Below the pieces are notes generated by a model. It did not search any database, was not told where the DNA came from, and worked only from the letters and a program-made list of their open reading frames with translations. Below are positions 725 to 58,885 of a DNA stretch of 64,000 nt, piece by piece; the first letter of the stretch is position 1, and each line of letters starts with the position of its first letter. The stretch is from contig NZ_JAUNKC010000013.1 in NCBI RefSeq assembly GCF_030532965.1, positions 16,511 to 80,510 of the forward strand, in the 5' to 3' direction. Both the position numbers and the translations under genes were made by a program. The DNA is from Corynebacterium sp. Its GTDB lineage: Bacteria; Actinomycetota; Actinomycetes; Mycobacteriales; Mycobacteriaceae.

Positions 725-3700
725 AGATTTACCGAAAGCGGTTGCATTGTTCGATGAGCTGGGTTGGGCAACCGCACAGCCTACAGACACACCAACATTG
801 GACATTGGCACCAAAGAACAGCAGGCAGTAGCAAGACGTGGCTTAAGTACCGGCAACTGGGAGGACTACCAGTACCAACCGGAGTATCGTCGGATTGATT
901 ATCTCGACGGCGCCAACGAATACATGATGACCTTGTTCGCTTTGCGGTTGGGGGTGGCACCGAAGCGGATCATCAGCATCTTCCGCCGTACCGGCCATAG
1001 TGCCGATTATCGGCTCATTGCTGAGCTGGTTGCGTTACAAGGCGAAGACTACGCCCGAAAGTTTATTGCCAAGGCAGCCCGGTATAACGAAACCGAGGGA
1101 ATGGAGATAATCTCACATAACGAGTTCAATATTTCATCGTTTTTCCTGGTTACCCACCACTTCCCAGATTTCTCCGTCCCCGAGGAACCAAACTATCTAG
1201 CGGCGTGGGCGCTGTGCGCTGCAAAGGCTTTACAAGCTCCGGGCACAAAAATTTTCGGCCCCAAAAACCAACAACCAAAACTTTCTGAGATTACCCCTAA
1301 CCTTGTCCAGCACCTTGATGCCTGCATTCGCCACGGCGTGCCCTTGTGGGATGGGCTTGGATACGTGGTTATCGCTGCACTAAACCGGGGCTTGATTTCG
1401 CGTGAGACCGCGTTAACCGCCGCGATTACCGGTCTTGATGCCGCCACCAGGCCGATGCAGCGGCGACGAATGCTAGGTCTGCTTGTCGACGATCTAGGGT
1501 TGTCGGATGCTGATGTGGCCGCCCACAGCGAGGCATTCAGCAGCATCGCGTCTACTGCGGAACCGACAGTTATTTCCGCGATAGGGTTGCGCCTGATTGG
1601 CGTTGTTGCAGCTGATTCGGTGGGGGAGGTGTCGTTACCGATGCTGTATGTATCAACCTTGAAGGGGCAACGTGAGGTTCTTGCGGCGATAGCAGCGCGA
1701 ACAGACATCACCGACGGAAGTATCGCGGTTCTAACCGACCGCGTACGCGAACTCTCCCAGGTACGCAACGAACAGGTGGCACAGCAGGCACAGGCAGTGC
1801 TAGATCAGTGGGGCGTTGGTTCAGATGATGCTTTATCAGCCGATGGCGTGGAACTATATCCGTGGAATAACCCGCCTGAATGCTGGCAGGTACCGCGATT
1901 TGAACGGATCGAACCTACCTACGACGCACTTGTTGAAGCACTAACGAGCAGTGATTATGCTGTGGATCATGATTTTCTAGATCCGATAGATATAACCACA
2001 ACCGAATCTGAACAATATTTGGTAGCTTTTGCCCAATTGGCACTAAATGATGTGGAAGCTGCGCAACGGATTTCACGATTATCGGAAACCCACCGATTAT
2101 GGCAGTTACAGATGAGTAGGGACGAATCTGAGTTTAGGACCGTTACTAATCCATTTGACGATTTGATGTGTGAACGAAATCGGGAGCTCTCCTATGTCTT
2201 AGGTTCAATTCCGTGCATTGTATCGGAACCAAGCTTTGTGGATTTAAGCATTAGTTTTGCGGACCTACTTGAACGATTTGATGCGTACGAAGCCGCTGGC
2301 GTGAGTGTGTTGTTTTCTGATCTTTTGGTAGCACTGTGTCGGTTAAACCTCGCTGAGCTTAACATCGCTGATGCTGTGGTAGAAGCTAAGAAACGTGGAG
2401 CTAGCGTAATTCAAAGTTTCGCGCATCGTATTAATCGTACTGCTGGAGAAATCCTTGCCGAGTACATTCTTAGCCCACTTCCCTTACCAAAACTGACGGA
2501 TAATGGGTTCGATCACATTAGTCAATTCCTTGAAGTAAAACCAATTTCTGTGCCAGATAATTTGGCTGCATTTGTTAAAGATTTCGATGATGCTGGTGAA
2601 TTATTTATTTATGATCCAGGTGTATTTCCGACATTAGGCGACGCTGTATGGAGAGTTTTGGGGCATCGTTCGAGTTCATCTAATGCGGATCAAGGATTAC
2701 TCGCCCGTCAGGTTGCCCGCAGTGCCACGGCGTTAGGGCCAGGAACCGCGATGAATCTGATCGGGTTGGCACGTCCAACGAAAAGAGGTGGGATTAGTCT
2801 TGCGCACCAAGCCATCACCGATGCGTGGCAGCGGGGATTACTACGACCCGGAGCAGCAGACCCAAAGTACCTCGACTGGGATGTAATAGGCACGAAAAAC
2901 TTTAGTGGTTTTGCGGATGTCGCCTTGGAACTAACTGAAACCGGGTTGCTCGCCGTAGCGTGGCAGTTGCTCGACGATATTTTGTCGCATGCGCCGAAAC
3001 CCACCAGCAAAACCGTGGAGATAGCCGAAATGATGCTTCACCTTGCCCCAAGTGTCGCCCACGCTATCGCTAGTGGTGCAGCACCACAAGATGTAGCAGC
3101 CGTTACCCACCTGCGCCGATTCGCCGCTATGAGTGGCAAAAACAAAACCAGCCAGGCCGCCCGCGAAGCGGTGGCGCTATTACCTGAACCGGATACCACT
3201 ACTAACGTACCTGCCCCAATCATCGACCTTGATGGTTGGGATAAACCAGCACCGGAGGTCATCAACGACACCGTCGACCTGTATCTCACCCACGCCACCG
3301 AAACCCCGAGCGCCGTAACAGTGGGAATACGTGGCATGGGCGATAAGCGGCGGAAATTCGAGGTGAGCATGTGGGACTTCGAGATGCTGCCTAAAGTGAA
3401 CATCTATAAAGTATTCGGTTATCTTTCAGATGAATATCCCAACCAATATCACATGCGGTGGGATGGTAAAAAATGGCAACTTCAGAAACCACAACTTCGT
3501 TCCATTACTTACAAAGATTGGAATGATCCTGAGCTACCAATCTTTGCATCTGTTGTCTATATCCTGTTCGGGATGATGCATTCGGGTAGCCGGTGTAAAA
3601 ACGCCCGTGAGTGCATGGAACGGTTCTTAGTAGAAAACAAGATCAGTACTGAGATCGTCAGCCGCACCATTCGTAATTTGGTGGGTGAAGAACTATGGAC

Positions 3701-4004
3701 ACCCGTTCAAGCACTGAAACTACTAAGCACGGACGCGCATCTGCCGGTGCTATGGCCGCTGCTTACAGAAACAATAGCCTTTGCTGCCACGACAATCGCA
3801 GCAGGTCACGCCCCGCCGAAATGGCTCGCTAAGATTCTTGACTGCATCACCGAGCACTCAGGAGTTCTCGCAGAGGCAACCGCCGCAGGTTATATCCCGC
3901 CCGATGCGTGGGAACCGATTAGCGTGATTGCGCAGCAGAAGAAGAAAACCGCAGCGGTGAAAAAGGCAACTTCGCTTCTAGCAGCATTTGGAATTTCATC
4001 TTGA
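714..4004 (+). CDS. Large DUF6493-like protein of unknown function (array copy 2)
   Basis: Encodes 1096 aa without signal peptide or membrane segments, so probably cytosolic. It is mostly alpha-helical, Leu/Ala-rich and repeat-like, consistent with a helical solenoid. Landmarks shared with the neighbours: an N-terminus of type MPHK.LP.A..LFDELGW, LPMLYVSTLKGQ near residue 308, W..PRFERI near 385, SIPC..SEPSFVDLSISF near 498, MNLIGL near 680 and the LWPLLTE...WEPISVIAQQKKK C-terminus. Residues about 860-975 form a variable module (MRWDGKKWQ) resembling copy 4 rather than copies 1 and 3. The region around 2.0-2.7 kb is visibly more AT-rich than its flanks, as if mosaic. Start at 714 overlaps the previous gene by 11 nt. 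Most likely family DUF6493 or relatives; function unknown. Confidence 0.85.
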   Translation: MPHKDLPKAVALFDELGWATAQPTDTPTLDIGTKEQQAVARRGLSTGNWEDYQYQPEYRRIDYLDGANEYMMTLFALRLGVAPKRIISIFRRTGHSADYRLIAELVALQGEDYARKFIAKAARYNETEGMEIISHNEFNISSFFLVTHHFPDFSVPEEPNYLAAWALCAAKALQAPGTKIFGPKNQQPKLSEITPNLVQHLDACIRHGVPLWDGLGYVVIAALNRGLISRETALTAAITGLDAATRPMQRRRMLGLLVDDLGLSDADVAAHSEAFSSIASTAEPTVISAIGLRLIGVVAADSVGEVSLPMLYVSTLKGQREVLAAIAARTDITDGSIAVLTDRVRELSQVRNEQVAQQAQAVLDQWGVGSDDALSADGVELYPWNNPPECWQVPRFERIEPTYDALVEALTSSDYAVDHDFLDPIDITTTESEQYLVAFAQLALNDVEAAQRISRLSETHRLWQLQMSRDESEFRTVTNPFDDLMCERNRELSYVLGSIPCIVSEPSFVDLSISFADLLERFDAYEAAGVSVLFSDLLVALCRLNLAELNIADAVVEAKKRGASVIQSFAHRINRTAGEILAEYILSPLPLPKLTDNGFDHISQFLEVKPISVPDNLAAFVKDFDDAGELFIYDPGVFPTLGDAVWRVLGHRSSSSNADQGLLARQVARSATALGPGTAMNLIGLARPTKRGGISLAHQAITDAWQRGLLRPGAADPKYLDWDVIGTKNFSGFADVALELTETGLLAVAWQLLDDILSHAPKPTSKTVEIAEMMLHLAPSVAHAIASGAAPQDVAAVTHLRRFAAMSGKNKTSQAAREAVALLPEPDTTTNVPAPIIDLDGWDKPAPEVINDTVDLYLTHATETPSAVTVGIRGMGDKRRKFEVSMWDFEMLPKVNIYKVFGYLSDEYPNQYHMRWDGKKWQLQKPQLRSITYKDWNDPELPIFASVVYILFGMMHSGSRCKNARECMERFLVENKISTEIVSRTIRNLVGEELWTPVQALKLLSTDAHLPVLWPLLTETIAFAATTIAAGHAPPKWLAKILDCITEHSGVLAEATAAGYIPPDAWEPISVIAQQKKKTAAVKKATSLLAAFGISS
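3885..3964 (+). repeat. 80-nt near-identical tract, copy 2 side
   Basis: This tract matches 7041-7120 at 78 of 80 positions, with the last 61 nt identical. The rest of the two genes is much more divergent, and the homologous end of copy 1 (about 590-670) differs at many positions. A recent gene-conversion patch is the simplest reading. Confidence 0.85.
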
Positions 4005-4040
4005 CTCCGCCTTCGTTCGAATAACCCGAAAGTAAAACCC

Positions 4041-7000
4041 ATGCCAAACAAGCATCTACCCGAAACACTCGCGCTGTTTAGTCAATTAGGCTGGTCCGGT
4101 GCCGCGCGTGAAGATGCTGTAACTCTGCCCATCGGGACTCCTGAACAACAAAAGAAAGCAGCCCAAGGGCTTAGTTCGGGGCCGTGGGCTGGGTTTACGG
4201 GAGAGCTTTATGTTGACGATGTAGATCACTACATGTTGGCACTTTTTGCAATGCGATTGAAGGTGAATCCAGGGCGGGTATTCCAGATTCTCCGTTCCAT
4301 TCGGCACAGTGCAGACTATCGATTAATTGCAGAAGTAGTTGCGGTGAATGGGGCAGATTATGCCGAAAGGTTTATCAAAGAAGCATCCCGAAACTGCGAT
4401 ATAACTGGTTTGGATGTTACGACGACAGACGAGTTTAATATTTCCTCGTTTTTCCTAGTCAATCGGCATTTTCCGGAACTGGGAATTCCACGCGATCCCA
4501 ATTATCTACACGCGTGGGCGTTATGCGTCGCGCATCGCTTCAGGGTTCGAGGAGTGCGCATGAAATTCACCAAGCTGGCTGAACAATTACCGAGCTGGAC
4601 CGAGCTTGAATCCACGTTCGAAGAACACCTCAAGCTGTGCCTCAAACGTGGTGTGGCGTTGTGGGGAGCCGCTGGCCATGTCGTCGTTAAGGCAGTGGCG
4701 TTAGGAAAACTACCACGCGAAACCGCAATTACACAGCTCATCGCTTCGCTCGATACTGCCGTGCGCCCGCAGCAGCGCCGCCAGATTATCGCGTTGCTTT
4801 TCGACGATCTCGCGATTACCGAATCGGAAATACTAGCGCAATTAGAACCACTGAGTGCCTTACTTACCACCGCGGAACCGCAACTGATCAGTGCATTTGG
4901 GATGCCACTCATTCGGAAGGCACCCGCCCACAAACTCGGCATATTGGTTCTGCCCATGTTGTATGTTTCAACCCTCAAAGGACAAAAAGAAGTATTAAAC
5001 GCACTGGTCACCCGAACCGATATAGGCATCGAAGTGCGCACTGAATTGTGTGAGCGGATAAGAGAGTTATCCCAGGTAACAGACAAAAAAGTTGCGGCCC
5101 TCGCATCAACTCTCCTTGAAACGTGGGGGATAGTCGACCAGGAGCCGTCGACAAGCGATTCCAGTGTGTATTATCCCTGGCATAGTGCACCAGAGCTTTG
5201 GCAGCTACCCCGGTTTGAACGGATCCCTCCCACCACCACCGCCATTACCGAAAAGCTCCATTCATTTCCCGTTTCGGCATCCGTTACGACGGTCGAATCG
5301 GAGCAGTGCTTGGTGGCGTTTAACCAACTGGCCTGCCAGGATTTAGAGGCGGCACGTAGCTTATCGTCCACCCTTGGCCCGCAAGTTCCTTGGTGGCTTA
5401 AACTGCCGGAAGAGCAGGAACCCTTAGGAGTTTCAGTAAAAAGTCGCGAGTACCACATCCAGACCAACCTGGGATCGATACCATGCTTACTCTCCGAACC
5501 TAGTTTTATCGACCTCAGTATTACCTTCGAGGATCTTTTAACGCGCTTGGATAGTTACGCTAACTCAGGAATTGCGGTGCTTGGCGCGGACTTCGCCGTC
5601 GCGTTATCCCGGTTGCGGTTTATAGGGCTTGATGTCGCCGCTGCACAGGTAGAAGCACGCCGTCGCACGGTACTGGTTTCAAGTGATCGCATATCAGACA
5701 AACCGCTGGTCGCGGGCGAAATCCTTGCCGAGTTTCTCGCCGATCCTACAACACCGCCACCATGGTTAACCACGCAGCTAACGGCGGCAGATCAGTCGGA
5801 CTCTAGTTCGCTGCGGTACCGAAAAACCGCTACAAATGAGCGCGAAGGCGCTATAGCATTCCAAGCAGCTCGAAGCGGCTCCATTTTGGAACCAGATGTT
5901 GCCATGAACCTCATTGCGCTAACAAAACCAACGGTTACTGGTGGCTTGGAACTGGCACAGCAAGCACTTGTCGACGCTTGGGATCGCGGTATCCTTCCAC
6001 CGGGTGTCGCTGATCCCGCTTGCTTAGACTGGAATCAACGAACTACCAGCTACGCCAACATTGCTGAGGTGGCAGTGGAACTAGCTGAAAACAGAATGTT
6101 GGCGGTCGCTTGGCACTTACTCGACGATATCCTCAGCCATATATCCCGCCTACCAGTGGCTACTTCTCAGACGGTTAACATAGCTGAGACCATGCACCAA
6201 CTGGCTCCTTCTATAGCTCATGCAATTTCCTCTGGACAGGCACCATCCGAAACCGCCAACGTACCGGGTTTGCGCCATTACGCTGCGAAAACATCCACAA
6301 ATAAAACAACGGAGGCGGCACGTGCCACCATTAATCTACTACCGGAACCGGTATCTCTAACTACCAAGGAAAATGAAGTCGATCTGTCCGCCTGGAAACA
6401 ACCACAACCAATTGTCGAAGCAGATACAGCAACCTGCCATGTGATCGTCTCGTCTGCCAAAAACCAACCCAATACAATACAGGTTCTATTCCCACCCAAT
6501 GAGACCACGGGGCTCATTGGGAGAAATGTCTGCCATATCGTGGGTAAATTGGGTGATTTCCTCGACGTTCAAAAACTAGCCCTTAATACACCAGATGGTT
6601 TCGATTCTGCATGGACGTTATACGCTCAATGGCGTGGTGATAGGTGGGTGATTAGTAAGGAAAGCAGTCGAGAAACTCCCCACAATGATCGCCAATTAAC
6701 CACAACTGCCGTATTCATTCTCGCAGGAAGGCCGGTGATGGGTAAAGCGGGAGATTCCTGGTTCGAAGAATTTAACGACTTTCTTTCCAAGGATAAGATT
6801 TCTTCCGAGTCACTCCAAACAGTCACTAAAGGTCTTTTACGCAATAGAAATTGGTCGCCGGTTCGCATCTTAACTGTATTAACCAGCGAAAAGTATCTGC
6901 ACTACATGTGGCCAGTCCTGAGCGAATGCCTAGCTGCTGCCGCAAAACGCATAGCCGCCGGTGATCCGGCACCGAAATGGCTTGTCAATGTCCTCCGTGT

Positions 7001-7171: not shown

Positions 7172-10100
7172 ATGCCCCATAAGTATCTGAATGCGGCGAT
7201 AACGCTGTACCGGGAATTGGGTTGGCCTGATGCGGCCATAGAACAGATCCCAACGTTGCCGTTGGGTGATGCCAAGCAACAGGAAATCGCACGTCAAGGC
7301 CTAAGTTCCGGTAAATGGGACAGGATAGAGCGGCGTCCGATATACCGACATGTGGATTACCTTTCCGGGGAATCGCCGTATAAGCTGACGCTTTTCGCGC
7401 TGCGCCTTGGGGTGTCACCGAAACGGATTATCGAGCTACGGATAGAGCACGGTCACCGCACTGATTTCCGGCTTTTCGCGCAGCTTGCCGCAGCAAGAGG
7501 GCGTGATTACGCGCTGGAGTTCATAGCGGCGGCGTGTACGTCTGGTGGAAATCCAGACGTGCTGGACAGCGACACAGATTTTAATCTCATGTCGATTTTC
7601 CTCGTCACCAGCCATCTGCACGAGTACGACATTCCGACCAATACGCACTATTTAATGGCATGGTTGCATGCTGCGGCACTGGCATTAAATTGCCCCGACG
7701 CCATAAATATTGGGCACAATCAAAATCTGCCAAGCTGGACGGAGTTGGAGCCTACTTTTACCCGACATTTGCGGGCCTGTTTCGCCGCGAATATACCATT
7801 GTGGACGGTTGCCGGATCGGTGTCGATAGCAGGACTGGAGCTTGGATTAATCCCCAGGGAAGAAGTCGTTTCTGCTGCGGTTTCATCGCTTGCAACCGCA
7901 GTCGAGCGATCCCAGCAACGCCACATGATGAATTTCTTGTTCCAGGAACTTGCACCTATAGATGCCGACATCGTTAACCACTGGGATGGGTTCGTTGAAT
8001 TTTTGAATGTCGCAGCGCCCCACCATGTGGTCGCATTGGGGGAGCGCATGATTACTAGCGCCACCCCGGAGTGTGTGGCGGATGTCGCAATCCCTGCCTT
8101 ATATGTGCCAACGCTTACTGGTCAGCGCCGTATTCTTAAAGCGCTTGCATTACGTGCGGATTTAGACGATACAGCTATAAAACCCCTGTTAGATCGTGTA
8201 TTGGAGTTAGGCGACTCTGCCGACACGGAGGTTAGCCGTCGGGCTTTAGCGTTAGTGAAGCAGTGGGGGAGGGTACCTGAAACGTCGACAAGCAAAGCAC
8301 TGTATCGGTGGCAGAATCCGCCGTCGCTATGGCAGTTACCCCGGTTCGAGCGGATGCCCGCATCAGTAACAGCGATCGTTGAGGTACTAGCAACGGGGCT
8401 TTTCGACGCCGGAGTCACCACAGTAGAAACCGAACAATGCATGGTCGCATTCCTGGAATTGTGCCGCTTGGACCCGGATGCGGCAGCGCGAATAGGGGCA
8501 GGCAAGACTGTCGATGATGCCTGGTGGTGGCCATTTTTTGCCCCGGCAATTCAAAGCACGCCCGCATCGATGTCCGAACATGGCTCCGCTATTGCTGAAC
8601 GTAATTATCAACTCGTTCGATCATCGGTGCCATGCATGCTGTCGGAACCGAGCTTCGTCGATTTAAGCATTAGCTTCGATGACTTATTGGCACGTCTTGA
8701 TATTTATAGTGCCCACAATGTTTCCATACTGGAACCAGATTTGGTGGTGGCGTTATGCAGGTTAAGCACTGCCAATATTGACATTTCTAGTGCGCAACAC
8801 AAACTTCGATCGTACACAATTAAAATTGTGCGAAACCTTACGTACGAATTACCACACACGGTGGGCGAGGTTATCGCTGATTTCCTTACCACACCACTCG
8901 GGCTACCCAGCTTGGAGCGTGGGGTTTCGCATGGCAACGCATACCACACGCTGGTTACTCACGCCGAAAAAGCGGCCACCACATCGCGTTTTATCGATGT
9001 AGGGGGATACCTATTCAATTACAGCAACCACGATCACCTTGATCCAGGAATCGTACCTCGTTGGGGCGATGTTGCGTGGACACGGCTGCGGTTTCGGCGC
9101 AATGCGGCAAATATCGCTGCCAACCAGCTGGCGCAACAGGCTGCCCGGAGTGCAACACCACTTATGCCTGGGACCGCAATGAACCTCATCGCCGCGACAG
9201 TTGGAGGTAACGGCGCTGGTCAACAGGCTATTGTGGACGCATGGTCACGTGGTTTACTTCTGCCGGGGATGCCAGATCCGGCTTTTCTTGATTGGAACCC
9301 TCAGGGAAATAGTCACGCCAAGCTGACGAGAATAGCGCAAGAACTTGCCGATATGGGGATGGTGGCAATCGCCTGGCACCTTCTTGATACCGCGTTAGCC
9401 CAGTGTATAACCCCAACGATTGGCACCGCCCAGGTTGCGCGAACCTTGCTAGAATTTGCGCCTAGCGTCGCGAACGCGATCGAAAATGGCGATGCCTCGC
9501 GCGATGTTGCCCAACTGCCAGGGGTACGTCGGTTTGCTGACCTTGATGATAGAAATTCGACAAGTAATTACGCCCAACAGATCATTGAAAAACTGCCTTC
9601 ACCAGTGAATATTGCTGCTATTAGTCAGCCAACCCTTGCGGGTTGGGACGATCCGGAACCACCGGTGATTATCGATAACGCACCTGTTAATTGCCGGACA
9701 TCACCGATTGACCCCAAAAGACGTGTGGTCGAAATTGACCACACCCGCTTAAACCACCGGTGCTGGGAGCTATCCGGTGCGCAGCTATATGTCAGTCCGT
9801 TCTGCTTTGATATGGTTCTGGATTCACATGAAATCATCCTTGATAAATGCCAGGATGGACGGATGACCAGCGATTACGCAATGCAATGGAACGGAAGCCA
9901 GTGGATTTTGAAACCCAAAACTCCATTGGATTGTTCTTACCCGCCGATACCAATGCCGCAAACGGTCGTATTTATTTTGCTCGCGACCATGGGACCGGGC
10001 AAAACCGGCAATGCTGCGCAGCGGCTATTTCTCAGTTTCCTCATTGAAAAGAAAATTTCTTCGCAACTAATTGCCCTAACCACCCGTGAACTTGTGGGAA

Positions 10101-10411: not shown

Positions 10412-10459
10412 TGCCGTATTTTTCGCTTGTCGACGGTCCCTTGGGGGCATTATCATCAA

Positions 10460-10475
10460 TGTTTCACGTGAAACA
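10460..10475. promoter_or_regulatory. parS: parS site 1
   Basis: Perfect 16-bp TGTTTCACGTGAAACA, the canonical bacterial ParB-binding site, between the paralogue array and the trp leader. The flanking bases extend the palindrome to 18 bp. Confidence 0.95.
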
Positions 10476-10538: not shown

Positions 10539-10547
10539 AACTAAGCG

Positions 10548-10720: not shown

Positions 10721-12061
10721 ATGACTGATAAGACACTCCGCGAAACCCTCATCGACGCCTACTTCGGCGATTTCGGCGGCCAGCACGTCCCGGAGATGCT
10801 ATTCCCAGTATTAGACCAACTTGAAGCGGGTTTCGTCGAGGTTCTCTCCGATCCCACCTTCGAAGAAGAATTGGACGAGCTTCGGCGGAACTTTCTTGGT
10901 CGGCCCACCCCGATCACAGAATGCGCGAATCTTCCGTTAGCAGGTCGGGGTAGGGGCAAAGCCCGCATCTTCCTTAAAAGAGAAGACTTGGTGCACGGCG
11001 GTGCTCATAAAGGCAACCAAGTATTAGCGCAGGCACTTATCGCCAAGCGCATGGGTAAGACCCGGCTTATTGCGGAAACCGGTGCTGGCCAACACGGAAC
11101 CGCAACCGCGATGGTAGCGGCGCTGATGGGCATGGACTGCACGATCTATATGGGAGCGAAAGACGTAGCGCGGCAACAACCGAATGTCTATCGCATGCGG
11201 TTGATGGGGGCGACCGTCGTACCGGTCACCAATGAGCACGGCGATTCCATGTCCGATGCCATCGATGTTGCGCTGGGGGACTGGGTAGAAAATCTGGATA
11301 CTACCCATTATCTTTTGGGCTCCGCCTGCGGCCCACATCCCTTCCCAAAGCTGGTGAAGGAATTCCAAGCTGTTATTTCCCGCGAATCCCGCGAGCAAAT
11401 GCTCGAGCACTTAGACGGCAAGCTTCCCGACGTGGTGGTCGCCTGTGTCGGCGGCGGTTCCAATGCTATTGGCGCTTTCGCCGATTACCTGACCGACAAG
11501 CCTGGGAATGAAGACGTCACCCTCGTCGGCGTGGAACCCGCAGGTGAGGGACTTGATTCCGGCAAGCATGGCGCGCCGCTGAACCGAGGGAAGGTCGGGG
11601 TTCTACATGGTTCCCGCACCTATGTCATGCTTAACGACGACGGCTCCGTCCAGCACTCGCATTCGGTCTCGGCTGGCCTCGATTACCCTGGTGTCGGCCC
11701 GGAACACGCCTACCTCATGTCCACCGGCCGTGCCCAGTACGTCGGCATTACCGACGCCGAGGCATTGCAGGCATTTCGCATGCTCAGTCGGTATGAGGGC
11801 ATTATTCCCGCGCTAGAGTCCTCTCATGCCCTTGCATACGCCCTTAAACTGGCGGAAGAGGCCGAGGAGACGGGTGAACCGATCACCATCTTGGTCAACT
11901 TGTCCGGCCGGGGTGATAAGGACGTCAATTATGTACGGAATATCTTAGGCGACCTCGCTGCTGAGGATCCCGCAACCACCGATGTCACAAACCCGAAGGT
12001 AGCAGAGGTTTTAGCGGCTATGACTGCGGAATCTAATGCACAAGAAGGCGTGGGGCAATAG
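10721..12061 (+). CDS. trpB: Tryptophan synthase beta chain paralogue at operon head
   Basis: 446 aa, a complete TrpB fold: YFGDFGGQHVPE start, PLP lysine in HGGAHKGNQV, catalytic Glu in [17 protein letters not shown] phosphate loop, [11 protein letters not shown], and SGRGDKD. It would condense indole (or another nucleophile) with serine. It differs from the second copy at 16842 in conserved places: HKG where most enzymes and copy 2 have HKT, GSACGPHP for [16 protein letters not shown] for RHEGIIPA, and a roughly 30-residue longer C-terminus. It is the first structural gene after the attenuator, 8 nt before trpE. It may be a second functional beta chain, an indole-salvage enzyme or a recruited PLP enzyme; the PLP lysine and Glu are intact so it is probably active. 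Confidence 0.9.
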   Translation: MTDKTLRETLIDAYFGDFGGQHVPEMLFPVLDQLEAGFVEVLSDPTFEEELDELRRNFLGRPTPITECANLPLAGRGRGKARIFLKREDLVHGGAHKGNQVLAQALIAKRMGKTRLIAETGAGQHGTATAMVAALMGMDCTIYMGAKDVARQQPNVYRMRLMGATVVPVTNEHGDSMSDAIDVALGDWVENLDTTHYLLGSACGPHPFPKLVKEFQAVISRESREQMLEHLDGKLPDVVVACVGGGSNAIGAFADYLTDKPGNEDVTLVGVEPAGEGLDSGKHGAPLNRGKVGVLHGSRTYVMLNDDGSVQHSHSVSAGLDYPGVGPEHAYLMSTGRAQYVGITDAEALQAFRMLSRYEGIIPALESSHALAYALKLAEEAEETGEPITILVNLSGRGDKDVNYVRNILGDLAAEDPATTDVTNPKVAEVLAAMTAESNAQEGVGQ

Positions 12062-13647: not shown

Positions 13648-14300
13648 GCCAACCATCGATTCACGTGGTTTTGATAGATAATCACGATTCCTTTGTCTAT
13701 AACCTGGTTGATGCGTTTGCGGTTGGTGGCTATCGCTGCACCGTTTTTCGCAATACGGTGTCGGTGGCCGATATTTTGGCCGCCGAACCAGACCTTATTT
13801 GTTTGTCGCCGGGTCCGGGCCATCCGTGCGATGCCGGGACCATGATGGAGCTTATCGACGCCACCTTGGGCCAAATCCCGATCTTGGGGATCTGTCTCGG
13901 CTTCCAGGCGCTCCTTGCGCACTACGGGGCGACGGTACAGCCCTGTGGCCCGGTACACGGGGTAACAGACGCTATGCAGCTGACTGAGGCTGGACATGAG
14001 AGCGAGATTTTCGCCCAGTTAACAACCGATGCCCGCCCAGAGATCGGCTATATCGGTAACAATGTCCCTGTCGCCCGGTACCATTCGCTTGGCTGCCGCA
14101 TCACAGACGCGCCCGCAGATATTCGCGTGCTGAGTACCTGTGATACTGAAAAGCTGGGGGCGGTCATCATGGCGGCCCAAACTGTCGACGGGATGGCGAT
14201 CGGATTGCAATTCCATCCTGAAAGCATTTTGAGCCCGAGTGGGCCGATAATTCTCGATAGGTGCATCGAGACACTCGTCTCCCACGCCAAGCACAAATAA
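13644..14300 (+). CDS. trpG: Anthranilate synthase glutamine amidotransferase subunit
   Basis: 218 aa class I glutamine amidotransferase that supplies ammonia to TrpE. Visible features: IDNHDSFVYNLVD start, the oxyanion element SPGPGHP, nucleophile Cys in GICLGFQAL, and the His-Glu pair in QFHPESIL near the C-terminus. It is a stand-alone subunit, not fused to TrpD as in E. coli. It overlaps trpE by 4 nt and is followed by a 44-nt gap before trpD, the largest gap inside the trp structural genes. Confidence 0.95.
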   Translation: MSQPSIHVVLIDNHDSFVYNLVDAFAVGGYRCTVFRNTVSVADILAAEPDLICLSPGPGHPCDAGTMMELIDATLGQIPILGICLGFQALLAHYGATVQPCGPVHGVTDAMQLTEAGHESEIFAQLTTDARPEIGYIGNNVPVARYHSLGCRITDAPADIRVLSTCDTEKLGAVIMAAQTVDGMAIGLQFHPESILSPSGPIILDRCIETLVSHAKHK

Positions 14301-29216: not shown

Positions 29217-29406
29217 TAGGCAGCCACCCCGGATCACTTGGCGTATGACGGGCTGTGGTAGGTCTGCGGCGTTTAAACGTCGAAAAGCAAAGAACAAATT
29301 TCCGGGTTAACGTGCTGGCTAATACCTTGCCTGGGGCACAGGCTGGCACGTCATCCGCGCTGGTTGGTTGTGACTAATGCTACAAGAACTCCTGGGATAG
29401 CTTTTA

Positions 29407-46986: not shown

Positions 46987-48159
46987 GTGTACATTCGCCA
47001 ACTCAAGCTGCGGGATTTCCGTTCGTGGCCTGAGTGCCATGTCGAACTCAAACCCGGAATCACCCTGTTCATCGGCCGGAATGGGTTTGGGAAAACCAAT
47101 ATCATCGAGGCAATTGGCTATATCGCGCATCTAGGGTCACACCGGGTCAGCACCGATGCCCCCCTGGTTCGCCAGGGGCGGCAGTCCGCTCGGGTTTCGG
47201 TCACTGCCATCAATCAGGGGCGGGAACTGTCTGCACATTTGCTGATAAAAGCACAAGGCGCTAACCAGGCGCAGATCAACCGTACTCGGTTAAAGACCCC
47301 TCGTGAAGTGCTCGGTGTGGTCAAAACCGTGTTGTTTTGCCCCGAAGATTTAGCACTTATTCGCGGTGAACCCACCGAACGCCGCAGGTACCTGGACAAC
47401 ATTCTCACCTCTAGGAAACCCCGGCTAGCCGGAGTGAAAGCCGATTACGACAAGGTGCTCAGACAGCGCAGCAGCTTGTTAAAAACCGCAAGTGCTGCGC
47501 TGCGCAAAGGCTACGGACACGACGACGGCACCTTGAGTACCCTCGATGTGTGGGACGCACAACTATCACAGTTAGGCGCGGAATTAATCCAGGCCAGGCG
47601 GGAATTAGTGGCCGAATTACAACCCGAGGTTTCCGAATCCTACGCCGGAATTGCACCGGAATCCCGGCCAGCCCGCATTTCCTATCGCTCCACGGTTCCA
47701 GAGCTTTCCGACGACCTCGCGGTCATCGAAGCAAGCATGTTGGCTGAGCTTGGGAATCTACGGAAAAAGGAAATCGAACGCAGCCAAACGCTGGTGGGGC
47801 CGCACCGCGATGACCTGGAGATTTACCTAGGTGACGCGCCGACCAAAGGTTTTGCCAGTCATGGCGAAACCTGGTCGATGGTATTGGCACTCCGGTTGGC
47901 CGAATTTAACCTGTTGCGATCAGATGGCACCGATCCGGTGCTCATCTTAGATGACGTTTTTGCTGAGCTTGATGCCAAGCGGCGCAAACGGTTGGTTGAA
48001 TTAACAACCGGGGTGGAACAGGTGCTTATCACCGCCGCAGTGGATGGGGATTTGCCGGATAACCTCGCGGAATCTGAGATGCAGCAATTCCGAGTGGATG
48101 TTGAGGACACCGACAGCGGCCGAATATCGATTATCTCTTCGATTGGGGAATCGAAATGA
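46987..48159 (+). CDS. recF: DNA repair ATPase RecF
   Basis: 390 aa SMC-like ATPase acting in RecFOR loading of RecA at gaps. Walker [15 protein letters not shown] near residue 32, signature [11 protein letters not shown] near 270, Walker [14 protein letters not shown] near 320. Start is GTG 46987. Overlaps dciA by 4 nt, the conserved dnaN-recF-dciA-gyrB order. Confidence 0.96.
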
Positions 48160-48719
48160 GTGAGGCGGAAGAAAATTTTGAGGATTCGGTCGCAGCCACC
48201 TTTAAACGAATGCGAGAAGAGGCGAAAAACCGCGGCGGGAAACTTCCCGATCTAGCTGCACCGGCTGCTGCGAATCGGGCGTCGACAAGCAGAAACCGGG
48301 ACAAAAAACCGCGCGAACTCGGACGCCCCACTGGAAAAGACGGCCGCTACATTCCGTATGGCCAGACCAGCCTGGAGGGGTTTGGGGCGTTGGTGCAACG
48401 CGAAATCCGAAACAGAGGCTGGAGCAAACCGATCGCGGGCGGCTGGGTGCATTCGCACTGGCCAGAGCTGGTCGGTGAGCACGTGGCGGCGCATACCAAA
48501 GTGGAGATGCTCAAAGATAAAGCGTTATTTATCACGTGCGATTCGACTGCGTGGGCGACAAATCTGCGGATGATGCAACGCCAAATCCTACAAACGATCG
48601 CCCAAAAAGTGGGCCCGGATGTGGTCGTAGAACTGAAGATTTTCGGCCCCAAGACCCCCAGCTGGCGGTTCGGCTCGCTGCACGTGAAAGGCCGCGGCCC
48701 TAGAGACACCTACGGTTAG
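48156..48719 (+). CDS. dciA: DciA/DUF721 helicase-loading protein
   Basis: 187 aa. The first 90 residues are basic and disordered ([18 protein letters not shown]); the C-terminal half is the DUF721 domain ([24 protein letters not shown] and [19 protein letters not shown]). DciA is the ancestral loader of the replicative helicase and takes the place of DnaC. Located between recF and gyrB as in other actinobacteria. Confidence 0.92.
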
Positions 48720-48855: not shown

Positions 48856-50946
<2,091 letters not shown>

Positions 50947-51006: not shown

Positions 51007-51766
51007 ACGTAGCGTCGTCTATGGTGCGCAGCCGAGAAAAACAGAGCGAAATATACGCTTGCATTCCCGGTTCCGGATAGGCGGCACGGGTGAGCTTTTC
51101 GACGATCGGGCTGCGCACCAGCGTGCTGGTGAGTTTTCGCATCCGATCGTCGAACGGCATGATTTCGTCCCGCAGTTGTAGGGTTTCATCCGTTAATTCT
51201 TCGCAGTCCGCCATGGTCCATTCGGAGCCGAAAAGCTTTTCCAGTTTGATGCAGAAATCGGCCAACCGGTCGGCACTGACGCGACGGGTGGAGTCGTTGA
51301 ATTCGTCGCGGAAGAGCCCTAGCTCGAAGAATACTTCCGAAAGCTTTCGTTTTTGTCGCACCATCGCTAGTGATTTATGAGCACCCCGGGCAATAAGCGC
51401 CGCCTCGATTTCGTCGTAATACCCGGCGATGGGATCCGGCGAAGTAACAGAAGCGGTGCTGCGCCGGGTTTGTAATTCCAGAAGTTTCTTCCGCTGACGT
51501 TTCAGCTTCGCGATCTGGGCATCAATGGATGCTAAAACCTCCTCAAAACTTAAGAGCTTGGCGGAGTCCAATTGGTGCTTGATCTCGGACAGCGGAATCC
51601 CGGCAGCCACCATGCTTCGGATGTGAATGAGTAAGGCGACGTCTTCGAAGGTGTAATTACGCCACGCGCCGGTGCGTGCAGGAACCGGCATTAACCCAAT
51701 CTGATGGTAATGCCGGATGGTGCGCACGCTAACGTCGGCGATCTCTGCAAGTTCGGAAATTCTCAT
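51005..51766 (-). CDS. MerR family transcriptional regulator
   Basis: 253 aa from ATG 51766. The N-terminal winged helix reads MRISELAEIADVSVRTIRHYHQIGLMP, typical MerR, then a coiled-coil (EEVLASIDAQIAKLKRQRKKLLELQ). The C-terminal 150 residues form a ligand-binding or oligomer domain without Cys signature, so not a metal sensor. Its start overlaps the permease stop (ATGA), so it is co-transcribed with, and probably controls, the ABC exporter. Confidence 0.88.
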   Translation of the reverse strand: MRISELAEIADVSVRTIRHYHQIGLMPVPARTGAWRNYTFEDVALLIHIRSMVAAGIPLSEIKHQLDSAKLLSFEEVLASIDAQIAKLKRQRKKLLELQTRRSTASVTSPDPIAGYYDEIEAALIARGAHKSLAMVRQKRKLSEVFFELGLFRDEFNDSTRRVSADRLADFCIKLEKLFGSEWTMADCEELTDETLQLRDEIMPFDDRMRKLTSTLVRSPIVEKLTRAAYPEPGMQAYISLCFSRLRTIDDAT

Positions 51767-53361
51767 TCGGCTAGATCCCGGTGTGTGAAACGGATAAGGC
51801 CGAGCGCAAACGTCGAAAAGCCAATGACGATGAGCACAGCCGCACCGTAATAATGGTCGACTGCATGCGGCGCCCATGCGAAAACGGAGAGTTTTTGCAA
51901 CCAATCCGGGAATTTGAGCAATTCGCCGAAATACGTTATTAATCCCGACCCGGCAAGCGGAAGCCACACTAGAGCGCTGAGTCTGCGCCAGCAGCCGATA
52001 ATGAATGCAGCGATACCGGCGCAGGCTATTGCTGCAGGTAACAGATCAATTATTGACCACACCAAGATGGAAAACGAGGAGTCTGGTACCCGTGAATCCG
52101 CAATTGCACAATAGGAAGCAATGACACCCGTCACTACCGTTACGACAACGGCCGCAATACAGCTAAACACCCAGGTTAATGTGTAATTTTTCTTCAGGCT
52201 TAGCCCGGTGCTTAGCAGTAACGATACCTGTCCGTGGTGCTCGTGTTGGTTAAACGAAACAACGAGCGAAATCACCATGCAGCAGACCAAAATCCCGATA
52301 ATCGGGCTGGTAAATTCCGCAAAAATCGAAACTAAATCGGTGTTAGTGGTCATTAATGACAACAGTTCTTTGGTTCGTGGTGAGGAATCCATCAAGGAAT
52401 TCATCTCGCCAGTTAAAGCATAGAAACCGGTGCCGATTGCAATGATCGCCACCGACCACCATGCAAACAGCCCACCGTGGAGCCGCCACCATAGGCCGGA
52501 GAAACTAAAACCAGAAACCCGTGGTGTTACCTGGTCGCGTCTTGGCAACCACTGTTCATGAAGATCCCTGCGAGTCAATACAATCGGCAGCAACAAAACA
52601 CAATTGACGGCGAAGAAAACCGCCAGCGGCCATAACGTGTCGCGGTCAAACGCGTGGATAACGTCTCGCCAGCCAAAGGGGCTTAACCACCGCAGCCACG
52701 CGATATCGAAAATGTCGGCCACAACCCGGATGGCAAACGTTAGCGCGAGAAAACCCAAACCAGCACCTCGGGTTGCCCGAGCTGTGGAAAAAGCTTCACC
52801 GCAATTGATTGTGACCAGGCCGAAAGTGAGGGAAAACAAGGTGGCAAAACCACCAGCCAAGGCACATGATCGTAACTGAAACCCCGACAGGCTTAATGAT
52901 GCCGACCATAGGGTAATAAAAACCATGAAGCCGAAGAGTAGGGCCGTGATTACCGAAAGGATGACCGCCACCGTTTTTAACGATCGGGGGCTTAGCCCAA
53001 GGCTGTGGAGGATTTCTGTAATTCCAGATTCTTCTAAGTTTCGGGTGGCGTATACGGCTTGAAAGATACTCATGACCGCGCCCAAAATGAGAATCCAGGT
53101 CATGTTTTCCCACATGGTCCACGTCGCCACCGTTAAGTTATCCGGTACTTTTCCGTACATCACCACCATGCCAAGCGATGCGCGAATACCATCGCCAACT
53201 ATTTGTAGCGATTTCGGATCGGGGTAGGAGCTGTCAATCGGGTACGGGGTGGTGGCAAGAAAAATACCCAGCGGCAGCAACCACGCCGTTAAGAAAACTA
53301 GTCTGGTGCGCAGCATAAACCGCACCGTCATGGGGATTGCCCGGCTTGATGTTGTACTCAT
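51763..53361 (-). CDS. ABC exporter membrane permease
   Basis: 532 aa with about twelve hydrophobic segments in two halves separated near residue 275 by a hydrophilic stretch. Resembles the large permeases of tetronasin/polyketide-antibiotic exporters (ABC-2 type). Two nucleotides separate it from the ATPase gene and it overlaps the MerR gene. Substrate unknown; drug or lipid-like molecules are likely given the family. Confidence 0.85.
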   Translation of the reverse strand: MSTTSSRAIPMTVRFMLRTRLVFLTAWLLPLGIFLATTPYPIDSSYPDPKSLQIVGDGIRASLGMVVMYGKVPDNLTVATWTMWENMTWILILGAVMSIFQAVYATRNLEESGITEILHSLGLSPRSLKTVAVILSVITALLFGFMVFITLWSASLSLSGFQLRSCALAGGFATLFSLTFGLVTINCGEAFSTARATRGAGLGFLALTFAIRVVADIFDIAWLRWLSPFGWRDVIHAFDRDTLWPLAVFFAVNCVLLLPIVLTRRDLHEQWLPRRDQVTPRVSGFSFSGLWWRLHGGLFAWWSVAIIAIGTGFYALTGEMNSLMDSSPRTKELLSLMTTNTDLVSIFAEFTSPIIGILVCCMVISLVVSFNQHEHHGQVSLLLSTGLSLKKNYTLTWVFSCIAAVVVTVVTGVIASYCAIADSRVPDSSFSILVWSIIDLLPAAIACAGIAAFIIGCWRRLSALVWLPLAGSGLITYFGELLKFPDWLQKLSVFAWAPHAVDHYYGAAVLIVIGFSTFALGLIRFTHRDLAE

Positions 53362-54425: not shown

Positions 54426-54869
54426 TTAGACCTTCTTCATGTAACGCTCGATGACGTCGCCAAGCATGGGCAGGTGCGGCTTGATCAGGCCAGCTGCCTT
54501 GGAGCGGATGGCGTTGTAGCCCTTTTGTACTGCGGAGTTATCGACTTTCTGGGCGTTCTTGTCCAAAACTTCCAGGATGTCGTCGACTACGGCGTCGGAG
54601 TGGGTATTGAGGAAGGTGCCGAAATCGGCAACGTCCGATGCTTGGTATTCCACCCAGCGTGGCTGGAGGGTTTCCAGGATTTCTGGCAACAGCCGGTTGG
54701 CGGCTTTTGCAACAACCTTATCGTTGACTTTCTTGGCTGCTCCGAGCAGACCCTTGACGGTCATGCCGGAGATGCCGGAGGTGGAATCCACTGCGGATTC
54801 TACGAGTCCGGCGAGTTCGGCGGCTAGGGTTTCGCGCTGATCGCCAAGAAGAACGGAAAGATCTGACAT
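54426..54869 (-). CDS. DUF6918 family protein
   Basis: 147 aa from ATG 54869, preceded by TAGGAGGATGTTAC, a very strong ribosome site; the frame runs 36 codons further but without one. All-helical, with GLVESAVDSTSGISGMTVK, LLPEILETLQPRW and AVQKGYNAIRSKAAGLIKPHLP. The pattern fits the small DUF6918 proteins of mycolic-acid bacteria. Function unknown. Strong SD and terminator suggest high expression. The 395 nt upstream (54870-55264) contain its promoter and the terminator at 55144, nothing else. Confidence 0.8.
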   Translation of the reverse strand: MSDLSVLLGDQRETLAAELAGLVESAVDSTSGISGMTVKGLLGAAKKVNDKVVAKAANRLLPEILETLQPRWVEYQASDVADFGTFLNTHSDAVVDDILEVLDKNAQKVDNSAVQKGYNAIRSKAAGLIKPHLPMLGDVIERYMKKV

Positions 54870-55166: not shown

Positions 55167-55264
55167 GTAATACTGTCAATCCGACCGATGGGATCGTGAA
55201 ACATGCGCCAGCTTGTCGACGCCGCACCGCGTAGCGGTATCAGGTAGCAGCCATTGGTCGGTTG

Positions 55265-55579: not shown

Positions 55580-55798
55580 TTAGGTTTCGCTGCGGGCGCG
55601 CCGAATTCGGGCTGAAAGTGCGGCTTGGGTGGGAATGATCTGTTGTGCCAATTGGGTGATTTGGTCGTCGACAAGCGTGCGCGCCGCAGCGGAAACTATC
55701 GCACGAATCGCGGCTTCCTGTTTGCTGCAATTTTGGGCGCGGGCAAGCAGCGTAAGCGCCCGGTCTTGTTCGGCGGTTAAACGTAGCGTCATTGCCAT
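55580..55798 (-). CDS. Ribbon-helix-helix antitoxin-like protein
   Basis: 72 aa from the MAMTLRLT start at 55798; the frame extends left 29 codons through the promoter and is not used. MTLRLTAEQDRALTLLARAQNCSKQEAAIRAIVSAA is a standard RHH DNA-binding domain (beta strand then two helices). The C-terminal 35 residues would wrap the toxin. A 7-3-7 inverted repeat lies 10 nt upstream, fitting autorepression. Confidence 0.78.
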   Translation of the reverse strand: MAMTLRLTAEQDRALTLLARAQNCSKQEAAIRAIVSAAARTLVDDQITQLAQQIIPTQAALSARIRRARSET

Positions 55799-55908: not shown

Positions 55909-58485
55909 ATGAGCGACGATCTCTTCTCCGGAGACGAATACGATCGCGTCAAACCGATCGACCTAAACGAGGAGATGCAGACTTCCTATATCGACTACGC
56001 GATGTCAGTCATCGTCGGTCGAGCATTGCCGGAGGTGCGCGACGGCTTGAAACCCGTGCACCGCCGCATTCTCTACGCAATGTACGACAACGGCTACCGG
56101 CCGGATCGTAGCTACGTGAAGTCCGCTCGACCCGTGGCAGACACCATGGGTAACTACCACCCGCACGGCGACACTGCCATTTATGACACCTTGGTGCGCA
56201 TGGCCCAGGACTGGAACATGCGTTATCCGCTTGTCGACGGCCAAGGTAACTTCGGTTCCCGAGGCAACGACGGCCCCGCCGCCATGCGTTATACCGAGTG
56301 TCGTTTGACCCCGTTGGCGATGGAAATGGTGCGTGACATCCGCGAAAACACCGTGGATTTCTCGCCCAACTACGACGGCAAAACCCAAGAACCGGACATC
56401 CTGCCCGCCCGGGTGCCGAACCTGCTAATGAACGGTTCCAACGGCATCGCGGTGGGTATGGCAACCAATATTCCACCGCATAACCTGCGGGAATTGGCCG
56501 ATGCCATCTACTGGTTATTGGAAAATCCCGAAGCAGACGACACCGCCGCACTTGAGGCGTGCATGCAGTTTGTTAAAGGCCCCGATTTCCCCACCGCAGG
56601 TCTTATTGTTGGCACCCAAGGGATTAAAGATGCCTACACAACCGGGCGCGGTTCCATTCGGATGCGCGGCGTTACCTCCATTGAAGAGGAAGGCAGCCGC
56701 CAGACTATCGTCATCACCGAGCTGCCGTACCAGGTGAACCCCGACAACCTGATCTCCAATATCGCCGAGCAGGTGCGCGACGGCAAACTCGCTGGTATTT
56801 CCAAGATCGAAGACGAGTCCTCCGACCGTGTCGGCCTGCGCATCGTTGTTACCCTCAAGCGGGACGCAGTGCCACGGGTTGTGCTCAATAACCTGTACAA
56901 GCACTCGCAGCTGCAAACCAGCTTCGGCGCTAATATGCTCTCCATCGTTGATGGGGTGCCGCGTACCCTGCGGCTGGATCAAATGCTTCGGCATTATGTC
57001 GCCCACCAGATCGAAGTTATCGTTCGCCGTACCCAGTACCGGTTGGACGAGGCCGAAAAGCGCGCCCATATTCTGCGCGGCTTGGTCAAAGCGCTCGATA
57101 TGTTGGACGAGGTCATCGCCCTGATCCGGCGTTCTGAAACCGTCGACATTGCCCGCAGCGGCTTGATGGATCTGCTTGCCATCGATGAAGTCCAAGCAGA
57201 TGCCATTTTGTCCATGCAATTGCGTAGGTTGGCAGCCCTGGAACGGCAAAAGATCATCGACGAATTGGCCGAGATTGAAGAGATCATCGCCGATTTGAAG
57301 GATATTCTCGCCACCCCAGAACGTCAGCGCACCATCGTGCGGGATGAGCTGAAGGAAATCGTCGACAAGTACGGCGACGAGCGTCGTTCCGAAATCATCG
57401 CCGCCACCGGCGAAGTGACCGAAGAGGACCTGATCGCCCGCGAAAACGTCGTGGTTACCATCACTTCCACCGGCTATGCGAAGCGCACCAAGGTGGATCT
57501 GTACAAATCGCAGCGGCGCGGCGGCAAGGGCGTTCGTGGTGCCGAGCTTAAGCAAGACGATATCGTGCGGCACTTCTTCGTCTGCTCCACCCACGACTGG
57601 ATTTTGTTCTTCACCAATTTCGGTCGCGTGTACCGGCTCAAGGCCTACGAACTGCCGGAGGCGTCTCGCACCGCCCGCGGCCAGCATGTGGCTAACCTGC
57701 TGGAATTCCAGCCGGAAGAACGCATCGCCCAGGTCATCCAAATCCAAAGCTACGAGGACGCACCGTACCTTGTTCTGGCTACCGCCCAAGGTCGAGTCAA
57801 GAAATCGCGGCTGTCGGATTACGAATCCAACCGCTCCGGTGGCCTTATCGCCATCAACCTCCACGAGGGCGACAAACTCATCGGCGCCGCACTATGCTCC
57901 GGCGACGACGATCTGCTCCTGGTATCTGAGGAAGGCCAGTCGATTCGCTTCAAGGCCGATGATGAGCAACTGCGTCCGATGGGTCGCAGCACCGCTGGCG
58001 TGAAGGGTATGCGGTTCAGGGGCGACGACCAATTGCTCGCTATGACGGTCGTTCGCGAAGGCGCATTCCTCCTGGTTGCGACCAGCGGCGGTTACGGCAA
58101 GCGCACTAGCCTGGAAGAGTATTCCTCTCAGGGCCGCGGTGGCGTTGGCGTGGTCACTTTCAAGTACAACCCGAAGCGCGGCAAACTGATCGGCGCGTTG
58201 GTTGTTGATAATGATGACCAGATCTTTGCCATTACTTCCGCCGGTGGTGTGATTCGCACCGAAGTTAACCAGATTCGCCCATCGTCGCGTGCCACCATGG
58301 GTGTGCGACTGGTCAATTTGGAAGATGGGGTGGAATTGCTCGCCATTGACCGTAATGTTGAAGGGGAAGGCGAGGAAGAAGCCTCCGCCGTTGCTGCCGG
58401 TAACGATGGGAAGAAACCCGTCAGCCAGCAGGAAACCATCGATGAGATCATCGATGAAACCGCCACGAACGAAGGTGACAGCTAA
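55909..58485 (+). CDS. gyrA: DNA gyrase subunit A
   Basis: 858 aa from ATG 55909 (TTG 55906 possible). Breakage-reunion domain: [34 protein letters not shown], catalytic Tyr in [10 protein letters not shown]. Quinolone region reads [18 protein letters not shown], with Thr at the E. coli Ser83 position. The C-terminal pinwheel begins with the GyrA box QRRGGKG. The tail is acidic (EGEGEEEAS). Overlaps the next gene by one nucleotide. Confidence 0.97.
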
Positions 58486-58829
58486 TGGCAACACGTGAGT
58501 ATTCCATTCAGTTCATTTCACCCATGTCAGCGTTTCGCACCGGGTTCGCCTTGTCGATCATCGGGCTGTTCGCTTGGCTGGTGTGCTCCGCGTTTTTATA
58601 CTTCGGCCTCAAAGCCGCCGGGGTATGGGGACAATTCAACGATGTGATCGGCGGCGTTGGTGGTGAACAATCCATCACCTTCGGCGTAGTTATGTCGATG
58701 TCGCTGCTGGTAGGTGCGATTTTTGCGATCATTTCCTCCTGCCTAGCGCCGTTGATGGCGATTGTCTATAACGCGGTTGTTGATCTGTTTGGCGGCATTC
58801 GCGTTACCTTGCGTCAAGAGGTGGAATAA
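58485..58829 (+). CDS. DUF3566 membrane protein
   Basis: 114 aa with two membrane segments (about residues 22-45 and 63-93). ISPMSAFRTGFALSIIG and IYNAVVDLFGGIRVTL are typical of DUF3566, a family found directly after gyrA across actinobacteria. Function unknown. TAATG overlap with gyrA indicates coupled translation. Confidence 0.9.
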   Translation: MATREYSIQFISPMSAFRTGFALSIIGLFAWLVCSAFLYFGLKAAGVWGQFNDVIGGVGGEQSITFGVVMSMSLLVGAIFAIISSCLAPLMAIVYNAVVDLFGGIRVTLRQEVE

Positions 58830-58838
58830 CCATTAGGA

Positions 58839-58885
58839 ACCGTGGGGCGTAGGCTTACATTTTTTGCTTGTCGACGCCCCACGGT
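58839..58885 (+). terminator. Terminator-like hairpin after DUF3566 gene
   Basis: ACCGTGGGGCGT and ACGCCCCACGGT are perfect 12-bp complements 23 nt apart; the dispersed 11-mer forms part of the right arm and loop. T-run lies in the loop rather than after the stem, so termination efficiency is uncertain. Confidence 0.65.

Follow-up and report, generated by a model that had tools for sequence, protein, structure and literature searches.

A bipartite word repeated throughout Corynebacterium genomes as a candidate DNA uptake sequence with two dialects

DNA uptake tags have been described for the Neisseriaceae and the Pasteurellaceae (excerpt of PMC1939737). The DNA uptake sequence (DUS) of the Neisseriaceae is a short, non-palindromic word of very high copy number; its dialects lie one or a few bases apart, it is strongly conserved between relatives, and its new sites stand opposite unrelated sequence (excerpts of PMC3630211 and PMC2397512). 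The uptake signal sequence (USS) of the Pasteurellaceae is present in about 1,300 copies in Haemophilus influenzae (excerpt of PMC5217627) and favours one orientation in reading frames (excerpt of PMC2346458), and the tags of H. influenzae and Neisseria gonorrhoeae are reported with an excess of single-mismatch copies (excerpt of PMC1939737). In Micrococcus luteus, comEA and comEC are present, comGA-F are lacking, and transformation needs Flp pili; the available part of that report mentions no uptake tag (PMC6370729). Here we analyze a repeated word found in a 64,000-nucleotide stretch of Corynebacterium sp. (assembly GCF_030532965.1, contig NZ_JAUNKC010000013.1, positions 16,511 to 80,510), referred to below as the window, and follow it through the source genome and its relatives.

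The Corynebacterium word shares with DUS the traits given for DUS above. It differs from DUS, which is read by the ComP receptor, in its sequence, its phylum, a free two-base spacer and a G-rich flank, and the candidate pilus in Corynebacterium is of the Tad/Flp type. With USS it has in common a copy number of the same order and the preferred orientation in reading frames. Highly iterated palindrome 1 (HIP1), an 8-base palindrome of cyanobacteria, is likewise extremely over-represented in one lineage; unlike it, the Corynebacterium word CGTCGNNAAGC is asymmetric and bipartite. The likeness to M. luteus lies in the genes for ComEA, ComEC and a Tad/Flp pilus (excerpt of PMC6370729). We consider that the word, like DUS and USS, is probably a DNA uptake sequence, i.e. 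a self-tag distributed over the whole genome, which would lead a natural-transformation machine to favour DNA from cells of the same kind.

Pattern, abundance and placement of the word

The initial annotation had described an 11-base pattern with ten fixed bases, CGTCGANAAGC, and listed 29 exact copies in the window. Every listed position was correct, and 100 dinucleotide shuffles of the window contained a mean of 0.18 copies and at most 2. The sixth base turned out to vary as well, so that CGTCGNNAAGC is the wider pattern, with 39 copies in the window and a non-palindromic, bipartite core of nine fixed bases, CGTCG-NN-AAGC. The further statement that the central base is never G holds for the window, whereas G occurs in 4 of 173 copies in the genome. 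In 436 kb of the source genome we counted 241 exact copies of the core against 9 of the reversed word, and gaps of 0, 1, 3, 4 or 5 bases gave just 5-12 copies each; because the counts collapse at every other gap length, the spacer is exactly 2 bases. The commonest spacers in these 436 kb are AA, AC and AT, and such a free spacer rules out an origin from SalI sites, in agreement with the initial annotation.

The preferences around the core are sharpest outside open reading frames (ORFs), which are longest-ORF proxies for genes throughout this work. Among 56 such copies, A fills the first spacer position in 95% and G never fills the second, the base directly after the word is never C, and the flanks are G-rich upstream and A-rich downstream. 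Flank and spacer preferences are fainter in copies of the commonest coding frame, as expected if coding blurs them. The G-rich upstream flank is also seen in further species, as well as for the second dialect described below.

Across the source genome (3.21 Mb, 59 contigs), CGTCGANAAGC occurs 1,351 times (707 forward and 644 reverse), far above the 30 matches (13 + 17) of the reversed-pattern control. The over-representation seen in the window thus persists genome-wide, and the word is therefore no mere property of the window. In 461 kb of the genome, CGTCGNNAAGC has 254 copies (0.55 per kb, about one per 1.8 kb, on both strands), at a density of 0.93 per kb outside ORFs and 0.49 per kb inside them.

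Codon, peptide or mutational bias, or the remains of a repeat element, might be thought to produce such a word, since one opposite-strand frame, which by our frame reading encodes Leu-x-Asp, accounts for 105 of the 198 copies within ORFs of at least 120 amino acids in the 461 kb. However, permuting synonymous codons within these ORFs left a mean of 10 copies and at most 19 in 50 shuffles, so that coding does not account for the excess. Copies outside ORFs are denser and sharper, the dialects switch in concert, and no conserved sequence surrounds the word apart from the G-rich and A-rich flanks. We find an origin of this kind hardly credible. The two checks proposed in the initial annotation, a count over the whole genome and a codon-shuffled control, both leave the observation standing. 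There was no obvious bias towards gene ends, the deciles holding 13-28 of the 198 copies.

Two copies had been assigned to terminator arms, and neither assignment was confirmed. The copy at 45236 follows a predicted 15-pair stem (45200-45233) rather than lying inside an arm, its reverse complement GCTTTTCGACG sitting in the T-rich tail after the stem. At 58866 the terminator scan was silent, its sole hit within 58601-59200 being 58747-58760. Terminator arms were also rejected as the main role of the word: a fold of -10 kcal/mol or lower precedes the reverse-complement word in 11 of 54 non-ORF copies, compared with 39 of 396 random non-coding positions. Some copies may act as terminator tails; most do not.

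The word is brief, highly frequent and retained in a large part of the genus, as would suit a signal for recombination or segregation, of which Chi and the FtsK-orienting polar sequences (KOPS) are examples. Chi and KOPS are strand-biased with replication, whereas the word uses both strands, not only genome-wide but also on each side of the replication origin in the window (plus/minus 11/17 to its left and 5/6 to its right) and in stretches from four genomes of the second dialect (29 plus, 44 minus). This explanation is accordingly very improbable. The spacing of copies in the 461 kb, for which adjacent stretches of one contig were handled separately, is slightly more even than random, with a coefficient of variation (CV) of 0.87 compared to 0.96, a value as low being reached in 26 of 500 simulations.

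The word is scarce in recently acquired DNA, in both of the two islands examined. The initial annotation had pointed out zero copies in 59-64 kb of the window, where a small island (59448-63674) follows genes for tRNA-Ile and tRNA-Ala. We likewise counted none, although taken alone this is weak, about 2.75 copies being expected at 0.55 per kb (P ~0.06). The second case is a 15.6-kb stretch on another contig of the source genome (contig C14, 1-15626), which holds 0 copies where about 8.6 are expected; it is a defence-like island encoding an MmeI-type restriction enzyme and helicase-like, T5orf172, Abi_2 and pentapeptide-repeat proteins.

Dialects and their distribution in the genus

Among 301 genomes of the family (31 genera, with 30 genomes from Corynebacterium), strong enrichment was found only in Corynebacterium, and not in all of its members. 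The other 271 genomes contain 4-147 copies, which in most of them is comparable to the reversed control and in a few amounts to as much as about 6 times the control. When 161 Corynebacterium genomes were counted, CGTCGANAAGC reached 100 copies or more in 108 and stayed below that number in 53.

Scanning motif-poor genomes without a preset word brought up a second dialect, CATCG-NN-AAGC. Counted as CATCGNNAAGC, this dialect reaches 213-1,337 copies in 11 of the 161 genomes, and none of the other 150 exceeds 159. In ten of the 11, CGTCGANAAGC has no more than 43 copies, and in the remaining one (G425) it has 117. The 161 genomes thereby split into 107 with the first dialect only (at least 111 copies of CGTCGANAAGC), 11 with the second and 43 rich in neither, the counts of the two dialects, made with CGTCGANAAGC and CATCGNNAAGC, not being on one scale. 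Among the 43 are seven genomes with 54-82 first-dialect copies and one, G372, with 159 second-dialect copies. The proposal of an old, lineage-specific signature is in line with these figures, as one genus of the 31 sampled is clearly enriched and most of that genus carries one of two dialects, which are for the most part mutually exclusive. In 24 named genomes, CGTCGNNAAGC has 626-1,891 copies in 15 (e.g. Corynebacterium striatum 1,135, C. aurimucosum 1,179, C. gallinarum 1,286, C. tuberculostearicum 875, C. pseudodiphtheriticum 945 and C. pilosum 1,891) and 23-195 in the other 9, of which five carry the second dialect (490-983 CATCG copies) and four are low in both (46-52).

At some sites the dialects replace one another in place. 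In an aligned orthologous region, CGTCG is the form carried by the C. tuberculostearicum clade (7 rows) and CATCG that of its sister clade (KPL1814, MSK130, ACRPS and one more; 4 rows). At 3 of 13 aligned sites the word stands at the same place in both clades with its second base switched, one row per clade bearing an additional change at one of the three, and at several other sites the word of one clade faces unrelated sequence in the other. Within the first clade (6 genomes), 36 of 46 copies are identical at the nine fixed positions in all genomes, compared with 21% of control windows; these copies were counted per genome and are not independent, and the stretches L126 and L128, near copies of L123 and L127, were omitted. 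In the second clade (3 genomes), 18 of 22 copies are identical, compared with 58% of control windows. For 40 genomes, a tree based on TadZ, TadA and TadB, made by a quick method that leaves 12 of 37 inner branches unresolved and carrying dialect labels that we assigned, requires at least four dialect changes, or three without its two most weakly labelled genomes, namely G372 and G340 (111 first-dialect copies).

In C. macginleyi, CATCG copies number 490, as against 974-983 in three sister genomes, and CATCANNAAGC (CATCA) copies number 240, as against 102-105. A third dialect was considered for this species; decay explains the excess of CATCANNAAGC equally well, given that CATCG is halved. A lineage that is apparently losing its tag seems to leave near-misses behind, whereas no surplus of them exists in the source genome. 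For G418, a CGTCGNNGAGC dialect (15 copies in 40 kb, 1.8 expected) was suggestive only, because CGTCGNNCAGC is equally frequent there. In G345, a CATCG genome, the word is often lengthened upstream to AGGGGGCATCGG (11 copies, 0.14 expected; L028 and other stretches).

A base change made in concert across copies suggests a reader acting in trans. One such reader could be a chromosome-organizing or nucleoid protein that binds some 1,000-2,000 word sites per genome, each under weak direct selection. The sites of SlmA, Noc and MatP are of a comparable kind, the Corynebacterium word being far more abundant. The slightly even spacing, the lack of the word in two acquired islands and the lack of excess near-misses in the source genome would all agree with a nucleoid protein. 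Repeated and concerted dialect changes are nevertheless hard to obtain under weak selection acting site by site, neither dialect is abundant in 43 of the 161 congeners, and the window has no origin-linked strand pattern; such a protein is therefore an unlikely explanation.

Competence genes and the uptake reading

The genus encodes a plausible machinery for uptake. ComEC was found in 161 of 161 Corynebacterium genomes, and a comEA cluster adjoins comEC in 15 of 20 loci, including all 8 first-dialect-poor ones; in the other five, ORF picking may have hidden it. The ComEA of the source genome has SLBB and helix-hairpin-helix domains, and DprA is encoded there too. A TadA-type ATPase was matched in 158 of the 161 genomes, in 155 of them above the cut-off. 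The Tad loci contain TadZ, TadA, TadB, TadC, a DUF4244 Flp-type pilin, and TadE-like and TadG-like genes, the name TadE-like coming from position and alignment, as the protein tested had no Pfam hit.

At a threshold E of 1e-46, picked after viewing the data, 31 of the 43 genomes in which neither dialect is abundant have a weak TadA match or none. Among the 118 others this applies to 8, of which several are fragmented or incomplete drafts. This link may be ancestry alone, and three TadA-weak genomes group as one deep clade in the tree. In the three members sampled from a deep motif-free clade (G138, G325 and G311; L096-L098), TadB and TadC are matched by a single open frame, and the match to TadE is weak, the TadE-like gene being strongly diverged. 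A relation of ComEC length to motif status was also considered, as motif-poor genomes often have frames of more than 640 amino acids; it was dropped because G426 and G362 pair a long ComEC with CATCG.

The occurrence of copies on both strands and in coding and non-coding DNA, their absence from islands, their restriction to a single genus and the concerted switches together suggest a reader in trans and a force acting on all copies. Both would be supplied if tagged DNA were taken up preferentially and then recombined, which is the type of explanation accepted for DUS and USS. We propose that a receptor on the pilus, in all likelihood one of the small Tad/Flp pilins, would recognize the word together with its G-rich flank in double-stranded DNA, whereupon a single strand would enter through ComEA and ComEC and be recombined by DprA and RecA. 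Since fragments with a tag would have the higher rate of entry, an allele acquiring or retaining a tag would be copied into neighbouring cells (molecular drive), and tags would build up on both strands, remain exact and be absent from recent islands. Should the specificity of the receptor drift, the tags would follow in concert, potentially giving rise to species-separating dialects such as CGTCG and CATCG.

The word could also be HIP1-like or linked to modification, a methyltransferase, repair or defence enzyme reading it as a self mark that selection maintains. A bipartite word with an exact spacer, the dialects and the missing near-miss excess are what such an enzyme might produce, and 4 of the 20 comEC loci have a D12-class adenine methylase family close by. 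However, HIP1 is palindromic and the Corynebacterium word is not, nine fixed bases exceed usual restriction sites, and the methylase stands near comEC irrespective of dialect, in genomes with the first (L053), the second (L054 and L059) and neither (L061). We judge a self mark to be quite improbable. In these four loci (L053 4389-6369, L054, L059 and L061) the methylase sits beside a DUF6996/DUF6997/DUF7226 protein, the domains of both having been tested in L053 only. The initial annotation, which gave no mechanism, had compared the word with HIP1 or uptake sequences, a comparison that holds; uptake sequences fit better than HIP1 because the word is non-palindromic, has nine fixed bases, both strands, dialects and a flank preference, and is absent from two islands.

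Several observations weigh against uptake. In 43 of the 161 genomes neither dialect is abundant, and ComEC and Tad genes also occur in such genomes (e.g. G433 and G217), so that the machine does not predict the word. Exclusion between the dialects is incomplete, as 108-159 CATCG copies are present in ten genomes of the first dialect. By eye, small-pilin alignments from 39 genomes showed no clear dialect-linked residue, and the A-rich downstream flank was not clear in the other species compared. Phage BFK20 has 1 copy in 42.9 kb and phage phi673 has 0 in 44.0 kb, as counted in the phages alone. Unlike USS, among which inverted pairs are common, the word shows no excess of close, terminator-capable pairs in the source genome: 13 neighbours of any orientation lie within 100 bp, with 12.5 expected. 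Single-mismatch copies are not in excess in that genome either, with 192 compared to 212 for the control in 461 kb, and 179 compared to 192 in 436 kb. CATCG near-misses do exceed the reversed control in several sets (e.g. 60 compared to 14 in G345), for which this control, having a composition of its own, is a poor yardstick. The missing halo of near-misses would fit strong drive or a mismatch-intolerant receptor, and equally a rival DNA-binding function; we would not take a near-miss excess as a defining feature of uptake sequences, because it should depend on the strength of the drive. Finally, neither a report of transformation or DNA uptake in Corynebacterium nor a paper on the word or on uptake tags in the genus was found among the open-access matches listed, which covered titles and the starts of abstracts, subscription papers and preprints being outside the scope. 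The mentions of Corynebacterium in the available part of PMC5217627 concern CRISPR-derived patterns. Judged from sequence, the word appears to fail no test that we would regard as defining for uptake tags.

Window features and significance

The copies of the word in the window are listed together with neighbouring features in Table 1.

Table 1 Copies of the word and neighbouring features in the window. Copies marked "wider" match CGTCGNNAAGC and are not in the narrower earlier pattern.
Feature	Position	Strand	Remark
CGTCGANAAGC	1481..1491	-	
CGTCGANAAGC	4796..4806	-	
CGTCGANAAGC	5146..5156	+	
CGTCGANAAGC	8283..8293	+	
CGTCGANAAGC	8398..8408	-	
CGTCGANAAGC	10425..10435	-	outside ORFs of at least 120 amino acids
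CGTCGNNAAGC	11422..11432	-	wider
CGTCGNNAAGC	11629..11639	-	wider
CGTCGANAAGC	12690..12700	+	
CGTCGANAAGC	13850..13860	-	
CGTCGNNAAGC	14506..14516	-	wider
CGTCGANAAGC	15425..15435	+	
CGTCGNNAAGC	16189..16199	-	wider
CGTCGANAAGC	19657..19667	+	
CGTCGANAAGC	20236..20246	+	
CGTCGANAAGC	22071..22081	-	
CGTCGANAAGC	24530..24540	+	
CGTCGNNAAGC	24946..24956	-	wider
CGTCGANAAGC	26192..26202	-	
CGTCGANAAGC	27655..27665	-	
CGTCGANAAGC	29278..29288	+	
CGTCGANAAGC	32091..32101	-	
CGTCGANAAGC	32432..32442	+	
CGTCGANAAGC	36778..36788	+	
CGTCGNNAAGC	37420..37430	+	wider
CGTCGNNAAGC	39543..39553	-	wider
CGTCGANAAGC	41745..41755	-	
CGTCGANAAGC	45236..45246	-	reverse complement in T-rich tail of terminator-like hairpin 45200-45233
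CGTCGANAAGC	45511..45521	+	between long ORF ending at 45182 and dnaN (45720-46961)
gene after dnaN	46987-48156		probably recF
CGTCGNNAAGC	47703..47713	-	wider
CGTCGANAAGC	48280..48290	+	
CGTCGNNAAGC	50844..50854	-	wider
CGTCGANAAGC	51094..51104	-	
CGTCGANAAGC	51811..51821	+	
CGTCGNNAAGC	54455..54465	+	wider
CGTCGANAAGC	55211..55221	-	
CGTCGANAAGC	55666..55676	+	outside ORFs of at least 120 amino acids
CGTCGANAAGC	56229..56239	-	
CGTCGANAAGC	58866..58876	-	
word-free stretch	59017..64000		two tRNA genes, then resolvase-type protein, Eco57I-type methylase, XhoI-type endonuclease and TIR-domain protein

Other repeated words were seen in passing. Seven palindromic GTTTCACGTGAAAC-type sites, which give 14 strand matches where shuffles give none, lie at 10461-22009 of the window, to the left of the oriC region by 23-35 kb, and resemble the ParB site parS. 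Elsewhere, CTACTCGAAA has 8 copies in 18 kb of G309 (L053; 0.33 expected), TCGTGCCCGGCA has 9 in 40 kb of G407 (L079 and L080; 0.04 expected) and is possibly a repeat element, and TGTTG-NN-GTCG, possibly a tandem repeat, has 20 in 21 kb of C. pollutisoli (L108; 0.62 expected).

In the two families with described tags, these words shape recombination and species borders. We lean, by a modest degree, towards the view that Corynebacterium is a largely unrecognized, naturally transformable genus with a tag system of its own, putatively read by a Tad/Flp-type pilus and the first outside the two Gram-negative families with known tags. Dialect switches in this genus may then work as inherent barriers that keep sister species from exchanging genes, and C. 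macginleyi may be one of the lineages now losing the tag. A third, independent case, in Actinobacteria, would allow one to ask why tags evolve, and the receptor could be sought by way of a natural experiment already at hand, in sister clades with different dialects. If the tags raise uptake, they would provide a practical route to genetics in species that are hard to transform.

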